From contig PNKZ01000001.1 in NCBI GenBank assembly GCA_013822735.1, positions 310,001-374,000 of the forward strand: a DNA stretch of 64,000 bases, read 5' to 3'. Below, piece after piece: positions 9,946-11,358 of this stretch. The position numbers were made by a program, and so were the translations under genes. Numbering within the stretch: position 1 is the first letter of the stretch; every line of letters starts with the position of its first letter. The notes below the pieces were generated by a model that made no database searches, was not told the DNA's origin, and worked only from the letters and a program-made list of their open reading frames with translations. The stretch is from Pirellula sp. (GTDB lineage Bacteria > Planctomycetota > Planctomycetia > Pirellulales > PNKZ01).

Positions 9946-10194
9946 TCACACCGTGATTTCGATCTTCTTGCCGTCCTTCGTGGGGACGTCGACCAGTTGT
10001 TCCTGAGGCTTCGAACCGTGCCATACTTGCAGGGTTTTCGGCAACCGCCGCACTTCCTGGATGAGCGGTAACTTGAAATACAGGCCCGGCTCCGTGCGGC
10101 TTTCGACCGGCTCGCCGAATTGCAAGATCACGGCCATTTCTCGTTCATCGACCGTGTAAAGGACCGAACTTCCCACTGGAAAGGCGAGTAAGCA
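9946..10194 (-). pseudogene. hflC: Fragment of hflC (protease modulator, SPFH family)
   Basis: About 80 codons matching the N-terminal part of HflC, a membrane-anchored SPFH/prohibitin protein that with HflK modulates FtsH. Visible pieces are the end of the N-terminal membrane segment (LLAFPVGSSVLYTVDERE), the conserved stretch MAVILQFGEPVESRTEPGLY and the region ending KKIEITV, directly followed by TGA at 9946-9948. The normal protein continues for some 200 residues, so the C-terminal part is gone; the membrane segment also lacks its beginning and merges into integrase sequence on the opposite strand near 10190. This is a remnant left by rearrangement, not a functional gene; a GTG at 10174-10176 could formally start it. 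Confidence 0.75.
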
Positions 10195-10201
10195 CTTCCA
10201 A

Positions 10202-11288
10202 ATGCAGTTCGTCGATCCGGTGACCCGGAGAAGACCCGTTCTACCGGCGTCCTGAAGACGGGGCTGAAGAAGGATCGCGTGGAAGCGGAGCGTGTCGCCG
10301 CTAAGTGGGAGGCGGGGGGCGTTATAGCGACCCGAGCGCCATATCGTGGGAGCAGTTTCGCGATAGGTACGAGCGTGAGGTGCTGTCAGGTCTTGCGAAA
10401 GCGACGCTCGAAAAAGTCGACGGTGTGTTCGCCCTCATCGAGAAGATCCTCGCGCCGATACGCCACCGCGATCTGACTGCGGAACGATTAAGCTTCTTTA
10501 CGGCTTTACGGCGGAACTTCGTAAAGAAAGGACGGAGGGTCGGAAGTCGATTCCCGGTAGCGCTGAAAGTACGATTGCCGGAAATCTATCGCATCTTCGA
10601 TCCGCGCTGGTCAAGACTCCCACGGTAGTCGGCGAAGCCGCAGCGCCCGCTTGGCAAAACTATCTTCGCGGGTTGTGGTACTCCGGCCTGCGGTTGGCAG
10701 AATCCTTGGAGTTGTACTGGGATCGTGATGACCGCCTTTGTGTCGTGGATATCGAAGACGCTCATCCGATGCTACGAATTCCGTCTGAACTCGAAAAGGG
10801 CAACAAGGACCGCTTGCTGCCGATAGCCCGGAGTTCGCCGAGTTCTTGCGTCAGACGCCTAAGCAAGCGCGTCACGGGCACGTTTTCAAGCTGGTAACGA
10901 AGTACCGTCAGCGTCGGCCGACCGAATGGACCGTCTCCGAGATCGTTGCGAAGATCGGCAAGACGGCCCACGTGAAAGTGAACATGGACACGCGTACGGG
11001 GAAGGTGAAGTTCGCGAGCGCCCACGACTTTCGTCGGCCATTCGGTGAGCGTTGGGCGGCGAAGGTGATGCCTCGGATGTGATGATGCTCATGCGGCACA
11101 AAAGCATCGAGACCACGATGAAATATTACGTGGGCCGCAACGCAAAGACCGCCGCCCAAGTTCTCTGGGAAGCTCACGAGCGGTCACGGACCGCCGGTGA
11201 CACTTCAGTAACAGTGCACCTAAAGAAGCATGCGACTCTGGCGATCACAACACCGCAAGCCCTTGTGAAGAAGGGCTTTAGAAAGTGA
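10202..11288 (+). pseudogene. Decayed tyrosine recombinase (phage-type integrase)
   Basis: Similarity to a planctomycete-type site-specific integrase runs through all three plus frames in the right order: MQFVDPVT at 10202, then TRSTGVLKT and EAERVAAKWEAGG, then DPSAISWEQFRDRYEREV (N-terminal SAM-like domain), then RGLWYSGLRLAESLEL (first catalytic Arg), then FASAHDFRRPFGERWA (the HxxR box), then MRHKSIETTMKYYVGRNA (catalytic Tyr). At least five frame changes and an in-frame TAG near 10626 break it, so it cannot make a full-length enzyme. The last frame ends in TGA at 11286-11288, overlapping the 3' end of the opposite-strand tRNA-Lys. This is what remains of an element integrated at the tRNA. 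The boundaries at the N-terminal side are approximate. Confidence 0.85.
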
Positions 11289-11358
11289 CCCGGCTGGGAC
11301 TCGAACCCAGGACCTACGGATTAAAAGTCCGTTGCTCTACCAACTGAGCTACCGGATC
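11286..11358 (-). tRNA. tRNA-Lys (anticodon TTT)
   Basis: On the minus strand a complete 73-nt cloverleaf can be drawn: acceptor GATCCGG pairs with CCGGGTC (one G-T pair), D arm GCTCAGTTGGTAGAGC, anticodon loop CTTTTAA with anticodon TTT (lysine), T arm CTGGG-TTCGAGT-CCCAG and discriminator A. CCA is not encoded. The tRNA is intact although its 3' end touches the integrase remnant, which fits integration that restored the tRNA end. Confidence 0.97.

Follow-up and report, generated by a model that had tools for sequence, protein, structure and literature searches.

What event left a broken integrase gene running into a tRNA-Lys gene, with a piece of an hflC gene lying against its other end, close to the left edge of the 64-kb stretch of DNA analyzed here (the window, which starts at position 310001 of contig C1)? 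An initial annotation had taken this arrangement for a scar left by an element that integrated at tRNA-Lys, and had described an integrase with at least five frame changes that ends within the 3' end of tRNA-Lys(TTT). Frame-aware alignment of positions 10101-11330 with five full-length intact homologues bore out the description of the integrase, giving 6, 5, 6, 6, and 5 frame breaks, while three controls in which intact integrases were aligned with one another gave 0, 0, and 0. A sixth intact homologue, whose alignment covered the C-terminal part only, gave 2 breaks. The breaks fell near positions 10230, 10320, 10510-10600, 10827, and 11078, with an additional one near 11205 against three of the five full-length homologues. 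The relic also lacks about 15-20 N-terminal residues and between 35 and 56 internal codons, a figure that varies with the homologue used, and the residues that we take to be the catalytic ones of tyrosine recombinases can still be read across its pieces. The final piece reads to a stop codon at 11286-11288, inside the tRNA-Lys gene. An integrase frame that crosses its own attachment site is given as a known exception, with Mx8 and SSV as examples, in PMC4383910. The features of the site are collected in Table 1.

Table 1. Features at the tRNA-Lys site and giant frames nearby. Positions are those of the window unless preceded by a contig name.
Feature	Position	Strand	Evidence or remark
5' part of 7,325-codon open frame (C1:294497-316474)	1..6474	-	PATR repeats, PEP-CTERM end
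Open frame with weak helix-hairpin-helix match, inside the repeat-bounded segment	7244..8329	+	PF14520 24.4 bits, under cut-off of 27
Second open frame of that kind, similar to 7244..8329	8393..9610	+	PF14520 23.4 bits, under cut-off of 27
hflC piece, both ends missing	9946..10176	-	Band_7; NCBIfam hflC; alignment to G006 hflC
Tyrosine integrase relic	10190..11288	+	Frame-aware alignment to homologues; 5-6 breaks, N-terminal end missing
Terminator-like hairpin just 3' of tRNA, within the end of the integrase relic	11257..11278	-	Fold -16.4 kcal/mol
tRNA-proximal att repeat, 47 bp	11282..11328	.	Identical to C1:264233-264279, outside the window
tRNA-Lys(TTT), integration target, now whole	11285..11358	-	ARAGORN; Rfam RF00005, 76.3 bits
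5,048-codon open frame	C1:278846-293992	+	PATR repeats, PEP-CTERM end

An integrated element should have a far end, and the annotation had proposed looking leftward for a second copy of the tRNA-Lys 3' end as attL. No such copy was found within the 64-kb window alone; a search of the whole genome with positions 9880-11420 returned a single partial tRNA-Lys copy, at C1:264211-264282. Its exact core of 47 bp is identical at 47 of 47 positions to the repeat at the tRNA and has the same orientation. The repeat extends from 3 nt beyond the 3' end of the tRNA to the 5' side of the anticodon loop, and ARAGORN called no tRNA at the far copy, which is intergenic, between called genes at 262716-264002 (MFS) and 264542-267580 of the same contig. 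The far copy sits on the side of the tRNA's 3' end, 57 kb leftward and 46 kb beyond the window, and the segment bounded by the two copies thus measures 57.1 kb, the left 11.3 kb of the window plus 46 kb outside it. The hairpin at the tRNA stands out from shuffled sequences (z -2.94 for a 48-nt stretch), and the corresponding stretch at the far copy (-13.8 kcal/mol, z -0.89) lies within them. The third base of the tRNA-Lys gene is T where G001, G003, and G006 have C, so that the acceptor stem has a U-G pair there and not C-G. With both repeat copies identical, the element may or may not have replaced the 3' half of the tRNA.

Apart from this partial copy, the genome search matched complete tRNA genes and a short integrase-like stretch close to a tRNA-Ser. 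Contig C6 of this genome holds a broken relic, the second from this integrase family (L008 1488-1843), which converges with a tRNA-Ser(GGA) at L008 1381-1463 across a gap of 25 nt. In G006, which belongs to a related genus, another decayed integrase of the family (L040 9237-9830) adjoins the same tRNA-Lys(TTT), with a DNA identity of about 75%.

To place the relic among its relatives, we built a profile from eight intact ones and searched the named genomes with it. This gave 181 relatives, of which the best 80, representing 79 distinct loci, were kept; 77 of these best loci are planctomycete judging from their record titles, the exceptions being Microthrix and Emcibacter. A tRNA gene lies no more than 500 nt downstream of the integrase at 60 of the 79 best loci, and at 57 of these 60 it is convergent with the integrase, whose frame overlaps the tRNA in 21. 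None of the 79 has a tRNA within 1.1 kb upstream, a stretch that was covered short at some loci. Within the order, integrase matches were present in 78 of 296 genomes, and among 29 relatives drawn from the best-scoring of those 78, 19 had a convergent tRNA; since 13 of the 29 loci also belong to the set of 79, the two samples are not independent. Viral contigs contributed 61 loci encoding relatives of the integrase. A quick tree of the 79 integrases requires at least 29 changes of tRNA type across 57 labelled loci with 12 tRNA types, against 34-44 changes in 200 shuffles; the tRNA target of the family is inherited in part and changes often. Among the papers listed in literature searches on planctomycete islands, prophages, and satellites, none concerned this integrase family.

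We then sought a displaced tRNA half beyond the integrase at 18 other loci, chosen for having a tRNA and available DNA. It was present at nine, always as a direct repeat of 37-59 bp with 93-100% identity, and the intervals so bounded measured 8.5, 9.2, 9.8, 11.1 (the locus of Lacipirellula limnantheis), 11.9, 14.2, 14.9, 17.8, and 68.2 kb. At the remaining nine loci no repeat was found in the DNA covered (80-100 kb at five and 12-32 kb at four). A match in G297, one of the five, was left out of the count because it falls inside a whole tRNA gene, and stretches in G064 were left out because no tRNA was detected at that locus. The repeats of the relatives start at about the 3' end of the tRNA (in one case 6 nt within the gene) and reach as far as the anticodon region. 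In span and length the window's repeat agrees with them; only one of the nine other intervals is longer than its 57 kb, the remaining eight measuring 8.5-17.8 kb. In Botrimarina (G297 C1:174906-179690, L314), two integrases of the family lie close together in the same orientation and adjoin a tRNA-Arg, perhaps as a tandem insertion.

Ten proteins were scanned from two of the short elements, those of G063 (9.8 kb) and G018 (14.9 kb). Each element encodes a helicase/primase and a terminase large subunit, and one also encodes a helix-turn-helix protein that matches AlpA weakly. Like the window's segment, these elements have an integrase of this family next to the tRNA and a repeat of the same span, but no counterpart of their helicase/primase and terminase genes was detected in the segment. 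Judged by similarity to the two terminases, a terminase accompanies the integrase, within the DNA covered, at two of the 61 viral loci and at one of the 79 best loci of named genomes, that one being G063 itself. The 11.9-kb element of the family in G131 (L237 2392-9244) carries, as cargo, genes for an ArsA-type ATPase, an ArsR-type regulator, and transporters.

Tycheposons, a kind of phage satellite, use tRNA genes. The phage satellites covered in PMC11389934, such as P4, PICI, VEIMEs, and tycheposons, are integrase-borne elements, and the window's element is like them in this respect; unlike the satellites described there, its segment has no recognized gene for packaging, replication, or hijacking. 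A reading of the window's element as a phage satellite was therefore not upheld, with no element gene other than the integrase recognized in the segment by similarity to relatives' elements and terminases rare at the loci of the family. A closer match is offered by the tRNA islands of Islander, which, as PMC4383910 defines them, consist of a tRNA gene, a displaced piece of its 3' end that keeps the orientation of the gene, and an integrase at the tRNA end, over 2-200 kb, with a repeat that reaches the anticodon region. The present segment resembles such islands in the following features: a 47-bp fragment of the tRNA 3' end lies outside the full tRNA gene, on its 3' side and in its orientation, it falls between called genes and so does not overlap a conserved protein domain, and the length and the reach of the repeat are as described. 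It differs from the islands so described in that the integrase, whose frame would lie inside or overlap the island, is present at the tRNA end as a relic only, and in that the segment contains genes kept in genomes of the same genus.

Read from the left, the segment carries first a CHAT-TPR gene and genes for an FAD oxidoreductase, a 3-keto-disaccharide hydrolase, and a cytochrome c protein. A frame that fits no recognized family and an M3 peptidase gene come next, then two giant frames (5,048 and 7,325 codons, unbroken across 15 and 22 kb) that converge on each other, the two frames that match helix-hairpin-helix weakly, the hflC piece, and the integrase relic. Each of the three same-genus genomes has a counterpart of the M3 peptidase, at 80-83% identity, and none of these counterparts adjoins other genes of the segment; in its own genome the peptidase has no second strong DNA match. 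A block of three genes from the segment is also kept in G001, at 59-78% identity. Because these genes are kept within the genus, the 57 kb are not simply foreign but a mosaic, and the idea of a wholly foreign segment was abandoned once they emerged. No other element gene was recognized in the segment by tblastn (E 0.01) with the non-integrase proteins of four relatives' elements, and GC content showed no clear island over it. The second of the helix-hairpin-helix frames has similar proteins in 93 of the 296 genomes of the order and a 56% identical relative in its own genome (C3:431166-432365). A stretch of about 430 bp (L010 12867-13300; C1:276867-277300) is matched in part, at 69-84%, by several other stretches of this genome and by DNA of G001-G004, and is perhaps a repeated gene or leader. 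The two giant surface-protein frames are of some interest within the segment; a literature search on giant PATR proteins found no paper.

The annotation had placed an opposite-strand hflC piece, missing both ends, at the N-terminal side of the integrase, and on this point it was right. The piece matches Band_7 (E 2.5e-10), and its best NCBIfam match is hflC (E 3.8e-9, 35.8 bits, below the family's whole-protein cut-off, as a fragment would be). It corresponds to codons 22-97 of the 354-residue hflC of G006 (229 nt, 83% DNA identity), an intact gene that scores above the NCBIfam cut-off and adjoins hflK, and it abuts the truncated N-terminal side of the relic. The further claim, that the piece must derive from an hflC elsewhere, found no support within the genome. 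The proposed genome search for intact hflK and hflC found neither, the fragment being the only trace of hflC detected: no second hflC was detected with the fragment, the Pfam family, or G006 DNA as queries, no DNA matched the hflK of G006, and the remaining SPFH matches are two flotillins, one of them under the Pfam cut-off. Neither gene was found in the three same-genus genomes (G001-G003), and the fragment had no match at E 1e-5 in these or in G004. At the same threshold it matched 93 of the 296 genomes of the order, including G005 and G006 of the same family. Compared with G006, the piece has dN 0.053 and dS 1.19, against dN 0.098 and dS 0.77 for G005 with G006, values that indicate selection on the stretch during most of its separate history. 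The piece is now most likely debris without function, and it may be either the lineage's last trace of hflC or an import from elsewhere in the family.

The surroundings of tRNA-Lys in sister genomes gave a mixed answer to the question of synteny that the annotation had raised. In G001 and G003 the tRNA-Lys has no integrase of the family alongside, but its left neighbours differ in these two, and no clean empty site was found. In the window's genome, the counterparts of genes that start 6.8 kb from the tRNA-Lys of G001 are located at a distance of about 73 kb from the tRNA gene. The MFS gene of the left flank is not beside tRNA-Lys in G001, where it lies elsewhere, at a contig end.

We consider it probable, at roughly 85%, that a mobile element with a tyrosine integrase integrated at the 3' half of tRNA-Lys and that the segment has since been rearranged into a mosaic. 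The scar proposed by the initial annotation is thus supported, because a displaced tRNA fragment exists and the relatives of the integrase sit at tRNAs with the same kind of repeat. In its view of 6.3-11.3 kb as acquired and rearranged DNA, acquisition fits the integrase; the extent, however, is really 57 kb, and genes that same-genus genomes also have make up part of it. The two repeats, the convergent relic ending in the tRNA, and the geometry of the family are direct observations, and from them we infer where the crossover fell and in what order later events followed. Strand exchange in the anticodon loop would have split the tRNA-Lys gene, which the element's own tRNA 3' half would have rebuilt, leaving the displaced half to mark the far end. 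Decay of the integrase would then have fixed the insert in place, and other DNA, including the genus-shared genes and the hflC fragment that now adjoins the truncated integrase, would have come between the repeats to produce the mosaic. Several observations weigh against this history: it is in mild tension with a repeat that is still exact next to an integrase so decayed, no clean empty site was found, nine of the 18 relatives' loci show no repeat (five of them over 80-100 kb), the 57 kb exceed eight of the nine intervals, no other element gene was recognized, and GC is uninformative.

The same observations bear on other accounts of the locus. If the whole 57 kb were one acquired island, with the giant surface-protein and metabolic genes as cargo and only the integrase decayed, both repeats would be expected in place and exact, as they are; one relative's interval does reach 68.2 kb, and the displacement of the G001 neighbours to 73 kb from tRNA-Lys would follow. 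We nevertheless regard this as doubtful, given the M3 peptidase in three of three same-genus genomes, the three further genes in G001, the 8.5-17.8 kb of the other eight intervals, and the lack of any recognized mobility gene besides the integrase. The contrast between an exact far copy and a decayed integrase, in a segment that is a mosaic, could also mean that the far tRNA copy stems from a different element or event and that the end of the window integrase's own element was lost. The length, span, and orientation of the repeat are, however, those of the integrase family, and the genome search turned up no further partial copy of tRNA-Lys, which makes a separate origin distinctly improbable.

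Finally, the breaks could be errors in an assembly of 38 contigs, with the integrase and hflC really intact. We rejected sequencing or assembly error as their source and give it almost no credence: the 15- and 22-kb giant frames on the same contig are unbroken, the intact controls had 0 breaks, and sequence is missing as well, from the N-terminal end and the interior of the relic and from both ends of hflC. A relative with an intact hflC reading across the junction, which the initial annotation said would indicate such error, did not occur among those examined. Integration at tRNA-Lys followed by rearrangement remains our preferred reading.

The history of integration is of the textbook tRNA-island kind, and the scar itself is ordinary, such scars being well known. 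It would be a long shot to go further and propose that these tRNA integrases, a family found mainly in planctomycetes, act in the anticodon loop, often switch tRNAs, and build islands, and that here the island moved or gathered the two giant surface-protein genes as a unit. What was a hint at the edge of the window is now a mapped integration site with both ends, and the integrase family together with the repeat span, from the 3' end of the tRNA to the anticodon region, provides a practical rule for finding such islands in other planctomycetes.
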